DNA from: Paraurantiacibacter namhicola | GTDB lineage: Bacteria; Pseudomonadota; Alphaproteobacteria; Sphingomonadales; Sphingomonadaceae | Length of the DNA: 64,000 nucleotides | NCBI RefSeq assembly: GCF_001687545.1 | Contig: NZ_CP016545.1 | Location: 1,411,001-1,475,000, forward strand | Direction of reading: 5' to 3' | Shown here: positions 35,059 through 62,432 of the stretch, piece by piece | Layout of the letters: each line of letters opens with the position of its first letter | How positions within the stretch are numbered: position 1 is the stretch's first letter | Made by a program: the position numbers and the translations under genes | Notes under the pieces: model-generated | Databases searched by the model: none | The model's input: the letters and a program-made list of their open reading frames with translations, nothing else | Told to the model about the DNA's origin: nothing

Positions 35059-35510
35059 GGCTTTCCCCTCTCCCCGACCCTCTCCCCTGAAGGGGAGAGG
35101 GAGTTCGTGGCGCCGGAAATAGCCCTCTCCCCTTCAGGGGAGAGGGTTGGGAGAGGGGGCTGCGCACGCAAGCTTGCGATCACGTCGGCAAGTCGTGTCA
35201 GAACGCCGTGCATGTTTCCCATTACGTCAGAGTTTGTGAACCTGATCACCGTGTATCCTTGAGCTTCCAAACTTTCAGTGCGGCGTCCGTCATAATTATG
35301 TTGGCCGGCGTGCGTGTCGCCATCTACCTCCACAACCAGCTTGGGATCGTTGGCCGCGAAGTCTACAATATACCGCCCAATGACCTTCTGCCGCCGGAAT
35401 TTAACGCTCTGAAACCGCGAAGCGCGCAGTTCGAGCCACAAACGCGTTTCCGGCTCGGTCATTTCCCGCCGCATGGCTTTGGCGTGCCTCGTGAGATCTG
35501 CGTCGCGCAT
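35055..35510 (-). CDS. DUF559 / Vsr-like endonuclease-domain protein carried by a palindrome-bounded element
   Basis: 151 residues. The start MRDADLTRHAKAMRREMTEPETRLWLELR, then FRRQKVIGRYIVDFAANDPKLVVEVDGDTHAG, is the DUF559 fold, a PD-(D/E)xK relative of very-short-patch-repair nucleases. The probable acidic residues are D50, E61 and D63, with H67. From residue 117 the protein is translated repeat: PLPTLSPEGERAISGATNSLSPSGERVGERG encodes two flanking palindromes. Its ATG lies three bases inside the right inverted repeat, and its stop overlaps trpA. Function in the host is unknown; a role in spreading the repeat is inference. Confidence 0.85.
   Translation of the reverse strand: MRDADLTRHAKAMRREMTEPETRLWLELRASRFQSVKFRRQKVIGRYIVDFAANDPKLVVEVDGDTHAGQHNYDGRRTESLEAQGYTVIRFTNSDVMGNMHGVLTRLADVIASLRAQPPLPTLSPEGERAISGATNSLSPSGERVGERGKP
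35078..35101. repeat. 24-bp CCCTCTCCCC palindrome (extra copy at the trpA side)
   Basis: Perfect 11-bp arms CCCTCTCCCCT/AGGGGAGAGGG surround GA. Two further copies sit at 35123-35146 and 35525-35548 inside the terminal inverted repeats of the element. This copy lies outside the inverted repeats, within the DUF559 C-terminal codons. Confidence 0.9.
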
Positions 35511-35550
35511 GGCCCCTCTCCCAACCCTCTCCCCTCAAGGGGAGAGGGCT
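35121..35550. mobile_element. 430-bp nuclease-coding element with 38-bp terminal inverted repeats between trpB and trpA
   Basis: 35121-35158 and the reverse complement of 35513-35550 agree at 37 of 38 positions. Each end contains a CCCTCTCCCC palindrome followed by an AACCCTCTCCC-type half repeat. Most of the DUF559 gene lies between. Inverted repeats around a single gene inside a conserved operon suggest an inserted cassette. No target-site duplication was identified with confidence, and no transposase is present. The right end lies two bases from the trpB stop. Confidence 0.7.
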
Positions 35551-35551
35551 A

Positions 35552-36787
35552 TTAGATCTCCACTCCCAGCGCTTCCGCCACGGTGAAGATGTCCTTGTCC
35601 CCGCGGCCGCACAGATTCATCAGGATGGTCTGGTCGCGGCGCATGGTCGGGGCGAGTTTCGCCACGGCGGCGATGGCGTGGCTTGGCTCCAGCGCGGGGA
35701 TGATACCTTCGGTGCGGCAGAGCAGCTGGAAGGCGTCGAGTGCCTCCTTGTCCGTCGCGCTGGTGTATTCGACGCGGCCGGTTTCCTTCAGCCACGCGTG
35801 TTCCGGGCCGATGCCGGGGTAATCGAGGCCTGCGCTTATCGAGTGGCCCTCGGTGATCTGGCCATCCTCGTCCTGCAGCAAATAGGTCTTGTTGCCGTGC
35901 AGCACGCCGGGGAAGCCGCCCGCCAGGCTGGCGGCGTGTTCGTCTCCGTCCAGCCCGTGGCCCGCGGCCTCCACGCCCAGCAGGCGGACATCGGGATCGT
36001 CGAGGAAGGGATGGAACAGGCCGATGGCATTGCTGCCGCCGCCGATGCAGGCCACTGCCATGTCCGGCAGCTTGCCCGTGCGCTCCTGCATCTGGACGCG
36101 GGCTTCCTTGCCGATCACGCTCTGGAAATCGCGCACCAGCTCCGGATAGGGGTGCGGGCCGGCGGCCGTGCCGATGATGTAGAAGGTGTCGTGGACGTTG
36201 GCGACCCAGTCGCGCAGCGCCTCGTTCATCGCATCCTTTAGCGTGCCTCGCCCACTTTCGACCGGGTTGATGGTCGCGCCCAGCAGCTTCATGCGGAAGA
36301 CGTTGGGCGATTGCCGCCGCACGTCTTCGGCGCCCATGTAAACCGTGCAGGGCAGGCCGAAGCGCGCGCAGACCGTCGCGGTGGCGACGCCGTGCTGGCC
36401 CGCCCCGGTTTCCGCGATGATGCGTGTCTTGCCCATGCGGATGGCGAGCAGGATCTGCCCGATGCAATTGTTGATCTTGTGCGCGCCGGTGTGGTTCAGC
36501 TCGTCCCGCTTGAACCAGACTTCCGCGCCCATGCCTTCCGGCGCGTCCTTGCGCAGTTCCTCGGTCAAGCGTTCAGCGTGATAGAGCGGGCTGGGACGGC
36601 CGACGTAATGTTCCAGCAGGTGATCGAACTCGGCCTTGAAATCCGGGTCCGCCTGCGCGGCGCGGTAATGCTTTTCCAGGTCCAGGATCAGCGGCATCAG
36701 CGTTTCGGCGACATAGCGCCCGCCGAACTGGCCGAAATGCCCGCGATCATCGGGCTGGTTGCGGAAGCTGTTTGCCTGATTACCCAC
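35552..36787 (-). CDS. trpB: Tryptophan synthase beta chain
   Basis: 411 residues from a GTG at 36787 ([29 protein letters not shown]). PLP-enzyme signatures are [19 protein letters not shown], with the Schiff-base Lys in [31 protein letters not shown] with the catalytic Glu, and [17 protein letters not shown] for phosphate binding. C-terminal [20 protein letters not shown] is complete. It joins indole and serine to tryptophan. The GTG has no good ribosome site, so it probably depends on read-through from trpF, from which it is separated by a palindromic element. Confidence 0.97.
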
Positions 36788-36793
36788 AAAAAA

Positions 36794-36888
36794 TTCCGTT
36801 CGGGCTGAGCCTGTCGAAGCCCCGTTCTTGCTTCTTGCCCAGCGCTATAAGGAAAGACGGCCCTTCGACAAGCTCAGGGCGAACGGAA
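36794..36888. repeat. Palindromic element between trpB and trpF, relative of the insert inside trmD
   Basis: TTCCGTTCG (36794-36802) and CGAACGGAA (36880-36888) are the perfect outer arms. Inside lie GGGCTGAGCCTGTCGAAGCCC and the inverted GGCCCTTCGACAAGCTCAGG, each arm differing in the same three-base pattern as in trmD. The reverse complement aligns along nearly its whole length with 60989-61081, including the central GTC.TTC and AGCGC blocks. It occupies almost all of the trpF-trpB gap. Confidence 0.9.
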
Positions 36889-56112: not shown

Positions 56113-57573
56113 ATGTTCGATACGCTATCCGATCGCCTTACCGGGGTCTTCGACCGCCTGCGTGGGCGTGGTAGCCTGAACGAACAGGACGTGCGCGACG
56201 CGATGCGCGAAGTGCGCGTCGCGCTGCTGGAAGCGGACGTGGCGCTGCCCGTTGCGCGGTCCTTCATCGACAAGGTCACCGAAAAGGCTGTCGGCTCGCA
56301 GGTGCTGAAGTCCGTCACGCCGGGCCAGCAGGTCGTCAAGATCGTCAATGACGAGCTGGTCGCCATGCTGGGCGGTGAGGGCGAAGATGGCGCGCAGGCC
56401 GCGCCGCTGCTGCTGGATGCCAAGCCGCCCGTCGTCATAATGATGGTCGGCCTGCAGGGCTCCGGTAAGACCACCACGACCGCCAAGCTTGGCCGCCTGA
56501 TCCGCGAGAAGCACGGCAAGAAGGCCCTGATGGCCTCGCTGGACGTCAACCGTCCGGCGGCGCAGGAACAGCTCAAGGTGCTGGGCGAGCAGGTCGATGT
56601 GGCCACTCTGCCGATCGTCGCGGGCCAGCAGCCGGTCGATATCGCCCGCCGCGCCATGGAAAGCGCGCGCCTGCAGAATTCCGACGTGCTGCTGCTGGAC
56701 ACCGCCGGCCGCCTGCATGTCGACGAAGCGCTGATGGCCGAGATGAAGGCCGTGGCCGGCGTCTCCGTCCCCACCGAAGTGCTGCTGGTGGTGGACAGCC
56801 TGACCGGCCAGGACGCGGTCAATGTCGCCAAGAGCTTCAGCGACGAGGTTCCGCTGACGGGCGTGGTGCTGACCCGGATGGACGGCGATGCGCGCGGCGG
56901 TGCGGCGCTCTCCATGCGCGCGGTCACTGGCAAGCCGATCAAGTTTGCCGGCACGGGCGAGAAGCTGGACGCCATCGAGGCCTTCCACCCCGGCCGCGTG
57001 GCCGACCGGATCCTGGGCATGGGCGATGTCGTCAGCCTGGTGGAAAAGGCCGCCGCCGTCGTCGAGAAGGAAGACGCGGACCGCCTTGCCAAGCGGATGA
57101 TGCAGGGCAAGTTCGACATGAACGACCTGCGCATGCAGCTGAAGCAGATGCAGAACATGGGCGGGCTGGGCATGCTCGCCGGAATGCTGCCGGGCATGAA
57201 GAAGGCGAAGGCCGCGATGGCCGCCAGCAATATGGACGACAAGGTGCTGGTGCACATGGACGCCGTGATCGGCTCCATGACCGCGAAGGAACGCGCCAAT
57301 CCCGCCCTGATGAATGCCAAGCGCAAGAAGCGCGTCGCGGCAGGCAGCGGCACATCCGTTCAGGAAGTGAACAAGCTGCTGAAGATGCACCAGGAAATGG
57401 GCCGCGCGATGAAGCAGATCAAGAAGATGGGCGGGCTGAAGGGCCTTGGCGCCCTGTTCGGCGGCGGTGGTGGCATGGGTGCAGGCATGCCCGGCCTGCC
57501 CGGTGGCCCCGATGCCGGTTTGCCGGGTGGCCAGCTGCCGCCCGAGATGCAAGATTTTCTCAAAAAGAAGTAA
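56113..57573 (+). CDS. ffh: Signal recognition particle protein Ffh
   Basis: 486 residues. The N-domain MFDTLSDRLTGVFDRLRGRGSLNEQDVRDAMREVRVALLEADV is followed by the GTPase motifs G1 GLQGSGKTTTTAKL (about 114-127), G3 DTAGRLHVDE and G4 TRMDGDARGG. The methionine-rich M domain (MQLKQMQNMGGLGMLAGMLPGM) binds the signal peptide and 4.5S RNA, and the tail is Gly/Pro-rich (GGGGGMGAGMPGLPGGPDAGLPGG). It targets nascent membrane proteins. It starts the rpsP-rimM-trmD-rplS region. Confidence 0.97.
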   Translation: MFDTLSDRLTGVFDRLRGRGSLNEQDVRDAMREVRVALLEADVALPVARSFIDKVTEKAVGSQVLKSVTPGQQVVKIVNDELVAMLGGEGEDGAQAAPLLLDAKPPVVIMMVGLQGSGKTTTTAKLGRLIREKHGKKALMASLDVNRPAAQEQLKVLGEQVDVATLPIVAGQQPVDIARRAMESARLQNSDVLLLDTAGRLHVDEALMAEMKAVAGVSVPTEVLLVVDSLTGQDAVNVAKSFSDEVPLTGVVLTRMDGDARGGAALSMRAVTGKPIKFAGTGEKLDAIEAFHPGRVADRILGMGDVVSLVEKAAAVVEKEDADRLAKRMMQGKFDMNDLRMQLKQMQNMGGLGMLAGMLPGMKKAKAAMAASNMDDKVLVHMDAVIGSMTAKERANPALMNAKRKKRVAAGSGTSVQEVNKLLKMHQEMGRAMKQIKKMGGLKGLGALFGGGGGMGAGMPGLPGGPDAGLPGGQLPPEMQDFLKKK

Positions 57574-57606: not shown

Positions 57607-58131
57607 ATGGCAGTTGCAATCCGTCTCGCCCGTGGTGGCGCGAAGAAGCGTCCGTATTATCGCATCGTCGTGGCAGACAGCCGCGCTTCGCGTGACGGCA
57701 AGTATCTGGAGCAGATCGGGACCTACAACCCGCTGCTCGCCAAGGATGACGACAAGCGCGTCACCCTGAACGAAGACCGCGCCAAGTACTGGCTGGGCGT
57801 CGGCGCGAAGCCGTCCGACCGCGTGCTGCGCTTCCTCGACGCCGCCGGCATCATGGAACGCGCCGCTCGCAACAACCCCAAGAAGGGTGAGCCGGGCGAA
57901 GCCGCCAAGGAGCGCGCTGAGGAAAAGGCCGCCAAGGAAGCTGAAGCCGAAGAAGCCAAGAAGGCTGCCGACGAAGAAGCCAAGGCCGCAAGCGAAGCTC
58001 CCAAGGAAGAAGCTCCCGCTGAGGAAGCTCCGGCCGAAGAAGCTGCTGCCGAAGAAGGCGCTGCTGCCGAAGCTGCGGAAACCGCAGACGAAGCCAAGGA
58101 AGAAGCTTCCGAGGACAAGGCAGAGGGCTGA
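57607..58131 (+). CDS. rpsP: 30S ribosomal protein S16 with long Ala/Glu-rich tail
   Basis: 174 residues; S16 is usually 80-90. Residues 1-88 are a complete S16 ([42 protein letters not shown], ending [13 protein letters not shown]). Residues 92-174 are a repetitive tail of Ala, Glu and Lys ([32 protein letters not shown], then [23 protein letters not shown]), expected to be a long helix or disordered. Tails of this kind occur in other alphaproteobacterial S16 proteins. The function is unknown. It lies 33 bases after ffh. Confidence 0.96.
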
Positions 58132-58148: not shown

Positions 58149-58643
58149 ATGACAGGACGTACCAAGCCCCTCACCCTGGCCGCCATCACCGGCGCGCACG
58201 GGGTGGCGGGCGAGGTGCGCCTTAAGCTGCTGGGCGAGGGGCTGGACGCGCTGAAGGCTCACAAGAGCTTCAATGACGGCGCGCTGACCCTCACCGAGAT
58301 CCGCAGCGACAACAAGGGCGGGGCCGTCGCCCGCTTCGCCGAATGCAGCGGCCGCAACGAGGCCGAGGCCCTGCGCGGCACAACCCTGACCGTCCCGCGC
58401 GAGGCGCTGCCGCCGCTGGAAGAGGGCGAATATTACCACGCCGACCTGCTGGGCCTCGCCGTCGTCACCGATGCGGGCGAGCCGGTTGGCAAGGTCGTCG
58501 ACGTGCAGAATTTCGGCGCGTCCGACGTGGTCGAGATCGAAAAGCCCGACGGCAAGAAATTCATGGTCCCTCTGATCGACGCCGCCGTGCCCGAATGGGA
58601 TGGCGAGCGGCTGGTCGTTAATTCCGGATTCGCCGAAGGGTGA
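58149..58643 (+). CDS. rimM: Ribosome maturation factor RimM
   Basis: 164 residues. The N-terminal RimM domain is LTLAAITGAHGVAGEVRLKLLGE, and a conserved EGEYYHADLLGLAVVTDAGEPVGKVVDVQNFGASDVVEIEKPDGKKFMVPLIDAAVPEWD forms the PRC-barrel domain. It binds S19 and aids 30S 3' domain assembly. It follows rpsP as usual, but trmD is displaced by 2.1 kb. GTGA overlap joins it to the next small gene. Confidence 0.95.
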   Translation: MTGRTKPLTLAAITGAHGVAGEVRLKLLGEGLDALKAHKSFNDGALTLTEIRSDNKGGAVARFAECSGRNEAEALRGTTLTVPREALPPLEEGEYYHADLLGLAVVTDAGEPVGKVVDVQNFGASDVVEIEKPDGKKFMVPLIDAAVPEWDGERLVVNSGFAEG

Positions 58644-60260: not shown

Positions 60261-60395
60261 ATGACCTTCGCCGCGACGCTCCTAACGCTTCACACGGACA
60301 TTTTTCTAAAGCCCTTTGGGTTGGCAATGCGTTGCGTCACGGAGTATGGCGCTTCGGGTGGAGAGATACATCCTAGCAGTTGCTGTAGGTTCTGA
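60261..60395 (+). pseudogene. Truncated, diverged copy of the trmD 5' end
   Basis: The frame MTFAATLLTLHTDIFLKPFGLAM (60261-60329) matches the first 23 residues of TrmD ([23 protein letters not shown]) at about 14 positions and then runs 21 unrelated codons to a TGA at 60395. The DNA ATGACCTTCGCCGC is identical at both starts, and similarity begins at the ATG itself. It is either the remnant of the original trmD start, displaced by insertion of 60346-60747, or a partial duplication. No ribosome site is evident. Confidence 0.65.
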
Positions 60396-60735
60396 CGAAC
60401 CGACGAACCAATTTTGCTTCGATTGCTCGACTGAGACCTTCTTAAATCCGGAGATCGTGGCAATTTGGTTTGTCTTCTCGATGTTGATCGCGAGTCCAGC
60501 TGTTTTCTTCGGTATCGTCATTCACCGCAAATTGCACCGATTGCCCATGGTCGTTCGCGCGTTGCTTGTTGGTGTGAGCGTGTGCGTTCTCTGGTCCATC
60601 GTGTATGGTGCAGCATGGATCAGCTTAAATGCTGAGGTTTTCCTGTCCGGTTCGCTAATGGCTGCTGCCATATCATATTTCGACGGTGCGCGCGTGGACG
60701 CTGCTCGAGCAGCTACAAGATTTTCCGACTATTAA
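60346..60735 (+). CDS. AT-rich orphan membrane protein between the trmD remnant and trmD
   Basis: 129 residues from ATG 60346 (MALRVERYILAVAVGSDEPTNQFCFDCSTETF). Hydrophobic segments are IVAIWFVFSMLIASPAVFFGIVI and VRALLVGVSVCVLWSIVYGAAWI, then SGSLMAAAISYFDGARVDA. The base composition is visibly lower in GC (28 of 60 bases at 60421-60480) and codon use differs from all neighbours, a sign of acquired DNA. No family is recognised. Stop TAA lies 12 bases before the trmD ATG. Confidence 0.6.
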   Translation: MALRVERYILAVAVGSDEPTNQFCFDCSTETFLNPEIVAIWFVFSMLIASPAVFFGIVIHRKLHRLPMVVRALLVGVSVCVLWSIVYGAAWISLNAEVFLSGSLMAAAISYFDGARVDAARAATRFSDY

Positions 60736-60747
60736 TTGGGCAAACGA

Positions 60748-61587
60748 ATGACCTTCGCCGCCACCATCCTCACCCTTTACCCGGACATGTTCCCGGGGCC
60801 GCTGGGGCTATCGCTCGCGGGCCGTGCGCTGGAGCGGGGGGACTGGTCTTGCGAGGCTGTCCAGATACGTGACTTTGCGACGGACAAGCATCGCACGGTG
60901 GACGACACGCCCGCTGGCGGCGGGGCGGGCATGGTTCTGAAGGCAGATGTGTTGGCGGCGGCGCTTGACTCGGTCCAACCACCCGCATCCGTTCGCCCTG
61001 AGCTTGTCGAAGGGCCGTCCTTCACTTCCAGCGCAGCGCAACAAGAAAAAAGCGGGGCTTCGACAAGCTCAGCCCGAACGGAAACCTACGTTGGGAGACC
61101 CATCCTCGCCATGACGCCGCGCGGGAAGCCTATCACGCAGGCCCGTATACGCGAGCTGGCGGCGGGGCCGGGGGCCATCATCCTTTGCGGCCGGTTCGAG
61201 GGGTTTGACGAGCGGATCTTCGCAGCGCGCGGCGTGGAGGAAGTCAGCGTTGGCGATATCGTCCTGTCGGGCGGGGAGCCTGCCGCGCTGATGATTCTGG
61301 ACGCTTGCATTCGCCTGCTTCCCGGCGTAATGGGCGCGGCTTCCAGCGGGCATGAGGAATCGTTCGAGAACGGATTGCTCGAATACCCGCAATATACCCG
61401 ACCATATGAATGGGAAGGGCGCACGATCCCTGAAGTGCTGCGATCGGGGGATCATGCGAAGATCGCTGCTTGGCGCAAGGCAAGGAGCGAGGAAGATACA
61501 CGGTTACGCAGGCCGGACCTTTGGGATCGCCATGGTGGCGGTCGGGGCCAGCCTGCCTCTGGCGAGCAGTCGAAGAAGAAGGACTAG
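60748..61587 (+). CDS. trmD: tRNA (guanine(37)-N1)-methyltransferase TrmD with in-frame palindromic-element insertion
   Basis: 279 residues from ATG 60748. The SPOUT-family features are present: [42 protein letters not shown], then [70 protein letters not shown], and the end [29 protein letters not shown]. Residues 81-111 or so ([31 protein letters not shown]) are the translation of a 93-bp palindromic repeat, an insertion in a surface region between two conserved blocks. The frame and all catalytic blocks are intact, so the enzyme is probably active. Confidence 0.95.
60989..61081. repeat. 93-bp palindromic element inserted in frame in trmD
   Basis: CCGTTCG (60989-60995) and CGAACGG (61075-61081) are outer arms. 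Inside are CCCTGAGCTTGTCGAAGGG and the inverted GGCTTCGACAAGCTCAGCCC. The length is 31 codons exactly, so it keeps the reading frame. It is homologous, in inverted orientation, to the trpB-trpF intergenic element at 36794-36888. Confidence 0.92.
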
Positions 61588-61592
61588 GGCAT

Positions 61593-61961
61593 ATGGGCCT
61601 GATCCAGGAACTCGAAGCCGAAGCCATCCAGGCACTCGGCAAGGACATCCCCGAATTTCGCGCGGGCGACACCGTTCGCGTGGGCGTGAAGGTCGTCGAA
61701 GGCACGCGTGAGCGTGTGCAGAACTTCGAAGGCGTCGTCATCGCCCGCTCCAACCGCGGCATGGGCAGCAATTTCACCGTGCGCAAGATGAGCTTCGGCG
61801 AAGGCGTGGAACGTGTGTTCCCGCTGTATTCGCCGATCGTCGACAGCATCACCGTGGTTCGCCGCGGCGTGGTGCGCCGGGCCAAGCTGTATTACCTGCG
61901 TGGCCGCACCGGTAAGCGTGCGCGCATCGCGGAACGCCGCGACAACACGCCGAAGAAATAA
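61593..61961 (+). CDS. rplS: 50S ribosomal protein L19
   Basis: 122 residues from ATG 61593 ([112 protein letters not shown]), a complete L19 at the 30S-50S interface. It lies five bases after trmD with AAGGA upstream, and is followed by a strong terminator. Confidence 0.97.
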
Positions 61962-61989: not shown

Positions 61990-62024
61990 AAGGGCGTCCC
62001 GGCAGCGGGGCGCCCTTTCTCTTT
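61990..62024 (+). terminator. Intrinsic terminator of rplS
   Basis: AGGGCGTCCCG (61991-62001) pairs with CGGGGCGCCCT (62006-62016) with one wobble, then TTCTCTTT. It shares a 27-base core with the terminator at 62317-62349. Confidence 0.9.
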
Positions 62025-62116
62025 GGCTAGGCGGAGATACGGAGCCGGTGCTTAGCCCGCTGCGAGGGGCTGGCCGTCCAACAGGCGATATCTGTTCTTA
62101 TGAGAGGATATCGCAA

Positions 62117-62316: not shown

Positions 62317-62349
62317 GGGGCGTCCCGGCAGCGGGGCGCCCTTTTTGTT
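62317..62349 (+). terminator. Intrinsic terminator of the 59-residue exported protein
   Basis: GGGGCGTCCCG and CGGGGCGCCC arms are followed by TTTTTGTTT. The core 62318-62344 is identical to 61992-62018 after rplS. Confidence 0.9.
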
Positions 62350-62432
62350 TGTGCGGATCACGGGGCTTGCGGGGCGTGGGCCTGCGCGCCTACCTAGCGC
62401 GCATATGCAATTCCCGGAGAGAATGCCTGCCC

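Follow-up and report, generated by a model that had tools for sequence, protein, structure and literature searches.

The window, a stretch of 64,000 bp from the genome of Paraurantiacibacter namhicola, contains a trmD gene with a short palindromic element lying inside its reading frame. Three open reading frames that we take to be ffh, rpsP and rimM, ffh being additionally matched in the Ffh search described below, precede the gene in the same orientation, and a fourth, presumably rplS as judged from its protein sequence, directly follows it. The features discussed here are as follows.

36796..36886, reverse strand: second copy of the element, 91 bp, inverted relative to the copy in trmD, intergenic between trpB and trpF
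56113-57573, forward strand: presumed ffh, upstream of trmD
57607-58131, forward strand: presumed rpsP, upstream of trmD
58149-58643, forward strand: presumed rimM, upstream of trmD
60748..61587, forward strand: trmD, tRNA (guanine-N1)-methyltransferase, an open reading frame of 279 residues including the insert (PF01746, E 4.8e-47)
60989..61081, forward strand: REP-like palindromic dimer (kind A) of 93 bp, lying in frame within trmD
60989..61015, forward strand: left half-element, a CCGTTC lead followed by the hairpin GCCCT-GAGCTTGTCGA-AGGGC
61055..61081, reverse strand: right half-element, inverted, a CCGTTC lead followed by the hairpin GGGCT-GAGCTTGTCGA-AGCCC
61593..61961, forward strand: open reading frame directly downstream of trmD, presumed rplS (L19)

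TrmD is regarded as essential (PMC8643618). The original prediction, made from the letters alone, held that a 93-bp element with inverted ends had entered this gene in frame, and closer inspection bore this out. The element runs from CCGTTCG to CGAACGG at 60989-61081 and its arms were recovered as an inverted repeat. It lies in the TrmD frame and is stop-free, as seen from both the open reading frame and the PF01746 match, and 31 residues of the protein are its translation. Relative to the usual empty loop the net gain is about 33–37 residues (24–28 residues in relatives and 61 in the window by the same measure). The region 60980-61090 folds at −49.6 kcal/mol, compared with a mean of −29.1 for shuffled sequences (z −6.1; 0/200 shuffles as good). 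Several other repeats were observed around the gene. A 44-bp stretch at 60261-60304, 487 bp upstream of the real start, is 82% identical to the start of trmD and is followed by a 139-residue open reading frame (60316-60735) with no Pfam match, an arrangement suggestive of a partial duplication with an inserted segment within it. Downstream of rplS, two terminator-like hairpins (61992-62025 and 62318-62351) are 94% alike and lie 326 bp apart.

The half-elements of the repeat, which we call kind A, consist of a lead (CCGTTC in the trmD copy) and a hairpin around the core CTGAGCTTGTCGAAG. Across 121 half-sites, 32 from the own genome and 89 from four relatives, most had the lead CCGYTC. The triplet preceding CTGAGC is variable, and its bases covary with the triplet that follows the core: positions −1/+1, −2/+2 and −3/+3 pair in 96%, 90% and 67% of the half-sites, compared with shuffle means of 54%, 36% and 43%, and position −4/+4 pairs no more than shuffles do. 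Because pairing of the flanking bases exceeds that in shuffles, each half can be described as a covarying hairpin, with a stem made up of CT/AG and three covarying pairs that encloses an 11-base middle; the core was fixed by the search pattern, so that this description covers variation outside the core only. No Rfam model scored above its curated cut-off (AaHKsRNA41 reached 30.6 bits, E 1.8e-5, against a cut-off of 97). A plasmid search returned 23 places in ten Sphingobium records at 60–80% identity, none covering 80% of the query, and a phage search returned no match.

Kind A is not confined to trmD. In the own genome (2.59 Mb, one contig), the long half-site pattern with at most one mismatch was found 17 times and the short pattern 38 times, 32 of the latter with exact cores, while the corresponding reversed controls gave 0, 2 and 1. 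Since these counts are far over the controls, the repeat is not due to chance. With one-mismatch sites counted, the half-sites of the own genome form 24 clusters. Among 149 family genomes, 94 had the core and 55 lacked it; copy numbers reached 217 and the reversed control was near zero, making kind A a dispersed repeat family. Pairs of half-sites (n = 57) fall into two size classes of 63–81 and 90–102 bp, and single halves occur as well. The inverted copy that had been predicted between trpB and trpF is real, although the predicted span of 36794-36888 was slightly long, the CCG...CGG core occupying 36796-36886. Its two arms match the inverted trmD copy at 97% and 92%. The flanking open reading frames match PALP and PRAI (TrpF), and we take the former to be TrpB.

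Putative insertions of kind A into coding sequence, which the original prediction had proposed to look for elsewhere, were found both in the own genome and in relatives. The own hrpB gene (L046) carries two, one pair and one single copy, in frame, and the linker of a 2-oxoacid dehydrogenase E2 protein (L235) carries a degenerate pair that was judged by eye to be in frame; none of the remaining clusters in this genome has a convincing coding frame across the element. In a non-random sample of 60 clusters, the first listed places of four relatives, three were in frame in genes, namely those for methylmalonyl-CoA mutase, UvrA and a class I tRNA synthetase (L264, genome G097) that we take to be IleRS. 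Coding status was assigned from a codon score and by eye, with borderline scores of 0.09–0.12 settled by eye. The L264 protein also carries the sequence HPGLDPGSR...GTPDQVRGDD, which resembles another in-frame palindromic element.

The next question is whether the extra TrmD residues are an insertion or an ancestral loop. Of the 572 confirmed TrmD relatives, the best 80 (the nearest named loci) comprised 62 with a short loop lacking extra residues and 18 with some insert, among them Citromicrobium bathyomarinum (L097) and Erythrobacter longus (L121). The refutation condition set by the original prediction is thereby answered in favor of an insertion. The query used to choose this set carried the insert itself, so for a second sample 397 family genomes were searched with an insert-free TrmD. 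A match was obtained in 394, with no TrmD match in G033, G240 and G353, and in 49 of the 394, the own genome included, the match was in two pieces with a lowered score. Four of the 49 were dropped because their TrmD was split elsewhere or fragmented (G117, G135, G178 and G218). Three genomes other than these 49 were also left out: G256 and G380, with two matches each of which at least one was full length, and G319, split at a contig end near residue 200. The loop was thus scored as occupied in 45 of 397 family genomes and in 17 of 91 genera, the 45 comprising 40 loci fetched whole, four with a contig break in or beside the loop, and the window itself. This number is a lower bound, since smaller inserts could be bridged by a single match and the G301 contig ends at the loop. 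In 13 of the 17 occupied genera there are also genomes in which the match is single and unbroken. The 30 best single-piece matches yielded 28 parsable loops, all of them empty; two low-scoring genomes, G143 and G325, owe their scores to contigs that end further on, and their loops are empty. Outside the family, 375 of 382 genomes were matched, four of them in two pieces, and among the spans listed none is an insertion at the loop. In an Ffh control, all 199 genomes gave a match and, among the spans listed, no comparable fall in score was seen except in the fragmented G178. Each genome also gave a second match, presumably the paralogue FtsY, and G032 gave three matches in all.

All 40 occupied loops that were fetched whole (38 plus L164 and L188, from the unbiased draw) are in frame and free of stops, and they add about 27–90 residues. 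A further set of 54 occupied loops agrees in having an open frame, but parsing of that set required one. In 141 parsed sequences the loop length is bimodal, with 28–37 or 58–119 residues and none between, in line with the prediction that the family tolerates length change at this site. Ten sequences were unparsed for length, of which L050, L054 and L065 were returned for the tree described below and L164 and L188 were read separately. Translational bypassing of the hairpin, considered as a separate candidate, is unsupported, as 40/40 of the whole-fetched loops are in frame and stop-free. In four assemblies (G150, G326, G350 and G249; L198-L205) a contig breaks within the trmD insert or next to it, which could be an effect of a strong palindrome.

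An ancestral variable loop that is palindromic by chance or through shared codon use would have to be reconciled with a short loop in most relatives, with DNA that matches a dispersed repeat family, and with the presence of unrelated kinds of element at the same place. One solved TrmD, 7kff, may have a long loop, with about 40 extra residues near the insertion point, as such a view would allow. We nevertheless regard an ancestral loop as extremely improbable, and the empty sites contradict it.

The occupied loops do not hold a single type of insert. Sorted by eye, the 45 contain kind A (12, one degenerate), A with B (1), D with A (1), B (4), C (9), E (10), F (5), and D, G and H (1 each). Kinds C, E, F and H are similar to one another and may form one superfamily, so that the count of unrelated kinds is at least five (A, B, C/E/F/H, D and G). 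Clustering by blastn did not separate the kinds, merging 46 of 50 distinct inserts into one component, an outcome for which composite inserts and G-rich sequence may be responsible. Genus g20 includes three genomes whose inserts, of kinds A (degenerate), B and F, sit at almost the same point; between kinds, insertion points differ by several bases. A FastTree phylogeny was built from 141 TrmD cores after removal of the loop; it requires a minimum of 24 switches between the occupied and the empty state, or 37 when kind is counted. This tree is rough (about 240 residues), and some genomes enter it twice, once per collection; the unrelated insert sequences by themselves nonetheless imply several insertion events. 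The trmD loop therefore appears to be a recurrent landing site in the family that unrelated kinds entered independently. Composite inserts were also observed, with L185 combining A with B and L194 combining D with several A units, and these add about 67–90 residues. Elsewhere in the window, two 41-bp inverted arms (35118-35158 and 35513-35553) that are 98% complementary and 354 bp apart have the look of the kind E inserts in trmD of relatives.

The TrmD domain and fold are retained despite the insert, as judged from the PF01746 match (E 4.8e-47) and a predicted model that matches solved TrmD structures, best of all 3ief_A with a Z of 21.1 (rmsd 2.5, 159 residues aligned). This AlphaFold2 model, for which 37 proteins of the window and the loci were aligned, has a pLDDT below 50 at residues 85–110, between a helix at 66–76 and a strand at 119–128. 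Most of the insert in the window is thus predicted to be disordered, and the earlier suggestion that it forms a loop is borne out at the level of structure prediction; the mean pLDDT of this model is modest (66.8) and three other segments also fall below 50. Pairs of the same kind gave dN/dS values of 0.6–1.3 in the insert versus 0.05–0.15 in the rest of the gene (12 pairs, 11 with a ratio, the L097 and L168 inserts being identical). The inserts are therefore under little constraint at the protein level. The solved Corynebacterium diphtheriae TrmD (7kff, 308 residues) seemingly has its extra residues near the same loop, a hint of a permissive loop elsewhere.

We looked for signs of the machinery that might move kind A. 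The own genome has no match to the Y1_Tnp/RAYT family (PF01797), and RAYTs were found in 24 of 149 family genomes. Of this draw, 18 genomes are occupied, membership being taken from the kind A core list, and 3 of them have a RAYT. Among 26 RAYT loci in relatives, two of which are pieces of one gene, a kind A pair lies in the flanks of one; the kind B motif occurs in the fetched flanks of two. RAYT-driven mobility of kind A, with no RAYT in the own genome and a pair at 1/26 of the loci in relatives, is accordingly unsupported. No signal of a target-site duplication was detected at the 57 pairs (mean flank repeat 1.42 versus 1.29 in shuffles, sd 0.16), data with which a short or decayed duplication would be compatible. 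Given that neither a transposase link nor a target-site duplication was found, we infer mobility indirectly, and the machinery may act in trans or may now be lost.

Taken together, we think it quite probable that a non-autonomous REP-like dimer inserted in trmD at a loop that is a recurrent site for such events, that in-frame events are kept, and that the insert then drifts. The dimer, two inverted copies of a CCGYTC-led hairpin, would have entered a loop of the N-terminal domain that lies between a helix and a strand and can take up additional residues. As its length is divisible by three and it contains no stops, the ribosome would read through it, leaving TrmD functional with an unstructured spacer; translation of the insert and an unharmed enzyme are both presumed here. 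Unrelated kinds (A, B, C/E/F/H, D and G) would have entered the loop independently, sometimes side by side, with selection on the enzyme retaining only in-frame, stop-free events and the residues drifting afterward under little constraint. The spread is probably selfish rather than a benefit to the host.

Tolerance by the protein seems to explain why hits survive but not how many there are, and on its own predicts too few. At intergenic density, 0.2–0.3 kind A insertions would be expected in the loop across 149 genomes, whereas 5 were observed (one degenerate); at average coding density, 0.03 would be expected in the whole of trmD. Both are rough estimates that assume an intergenic share of 8–12%, a mean genome of 3.2 Mb and a 45-bp loop, and they also use the cluster ratio and the coding share from 80 sampled clusters, with counts typed for 148 of the 149 genomes. 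Three local density scans over the 80 named loci (516 kb) disagree. A scan with insert-derived motifs, which is biased by construction, found 13 pairs in trmD versus 3 elsewhere, while an ungapped inverted-repeat scan found 5 versus 13 and a fold-energy scan (z under −4) found 6 versus 24, ten of the 24 lying 1.15–1.4 kb downstream of the start of trmD. Most inserts escape the generic scans, which may also pick up terminators and hence neither prove nor exclude an excess; in the absence of a clear excess in them, the case for a hotspot rests on recurrence across genera and on the density estimate.

The gap between the 5 kind A loops observed and the 0.2–0.3 expected could be closed if the machinery is drawn to the trmD loop by its sequence, its structure or the state of its transcription and tolerance only spares the hits. 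Such targets could be the remnants of old palindromes, or DNA that becomes single-stranded where a gene row is highly expressed. The composites in L185 and L194, which look as if old elements attract new ones, and the three kinds at nearly one point within genus g20 fit this idea. On the other hand, no common motif was apparent by eye, no target-site duplication signal was seen, insertion points lie several bases apart between kinds, and RAYTs are uncommon both in the family (24/149) and among its occupied genomes (3/18). Such an insertion preference is possible, but on the unlikely side.

The same excess over intergenic density, unexplained by tolerance alone, would also follow if the hairpin itself, as RNA or DNA, were kept by selection, acting as a brake or as an element of stability and so reducing TrmD output relative to S16 and L19 from the same gene row, with different selfish elements acting as different hairpin donors. 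The unrelated inserts share only palindromy and place, and the position of trmD, directly before rplS and after ffh, rpsP and rimM, would suit such a role. Furthermore, 16 of 18 comparisons showed same-kind inserts to be better folded than versions with random substitutions, 12 of the 18 at ≤5%, in a test comprising nine pairs in two non-independent directions each. This test is confounded, however, if the pairs are separate insertions of one kind with conserved ends. About 88% of family genomes show no split at the loop, hairpins are weakened in some inserts (L048, L166 and L196), and the fold-energy scan placed more strong hairpins elsewhere (24) than in trmD (6). We consider selection for the hairpin unlikely. 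That the loop is a genuine attractor in either sense, a targeted site or a place where a hairpin is beneficial by tuning TrmD output within a row of ribosomal-protein genes, strikes us as fairly unlikely; were it true, unrelated selfish elements would have been repeatedly recruited as an exchangeable regulatory hairpin within a gene.

Under the favored reading of a tolerated, recurrent insertion, the trmD loop appears to be a place in an essential gene where selfish DNA docks repeatedly. In-frame palindromic insertions otherwise look like scattered accidents, but here at least five unrelated kinds have entered one small loop. Occupied loops and apparently empty ones coexist within genera, and the locus offers a natural experiment in which selfish DNA becomes protein sequence, one that covers how often elements land, which are purged, how fast the new residues drift and whether the mRNA hairpin plays a role. 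As a practical matter, element-encoded residues in predicted sphingomonad proteins should not be taken as conserved features.

Several known systems invite comparison. A REPIN is an inverted pair of REP-like hairpins that is mobilized by RAYT transposases. Kind A likewise occurs in inverted pairs (57 here), but its genome has no cognate RAYT and a single kind A pair lies near the 26 RAYT loci of relatives (for REPINs see PMC3116915). Across the 121 half-sites kind A lacks the GTAG tag that GTAG-REPs and REPINs carry at one end, and, in contrast to MITEs, its 57 pairs show no signal of a target-site duplication. GTAG and CGTC REPs are short hairpins, often inverted dimers, that are dispersed and sometimes intragenic (PMC3733652, main text, like the other statements taken from it here). 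The CGTC families, for which no dedicated transposase is described there, occur in S. wittichii, S. chlorophenolicum and N. aromaticivorans, and intragenic REPs are described for E. litoralis and S. alaskensis, where genes for tRNA synthetases and TruB carry them, and for uvrA of other species. Kind A has neither constant tag, being marked instead by its CCGYTC lead and covarying stem positions, and it does not share the 8–9 bp stem and 4–5 base loop of the CGTC-REP. REPs at about the same site are described in one case, recB of two Xanthomonas species, and trmD has 0 mentions in that main text (PMC3733652). The available part of PMC12306157 makes no mention of sphingomonads, and no description of recurrent TrmD insertion was found in the open-access literature searched.

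A close parallel had been predicted with the Rickettsia palindromic elements (RPEs), and this holds as an analogy: both are palindromes lying in frame in coding genes, with membership of the same family forming no part of the likeness. According to the available text of PMC10969869, RPEs comprise several families of small palindromes that lie in frame within many unrelated genes. Kind A is similarly in frame in trmD and hrpB and, in relatives, in the mutase, UvrA and synthetase genes; it differs in belonging to another host lineage, and the two are likened by description rather than by sequence. The same text does not describe several unrelated RPE families at one enzyme loop across genera. 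In-frame palindromic insertion is thus already known from Rickettsia and from sphingomonad REPs, and what is unusual here is its recurrence at a single loop of an essential enzyme.
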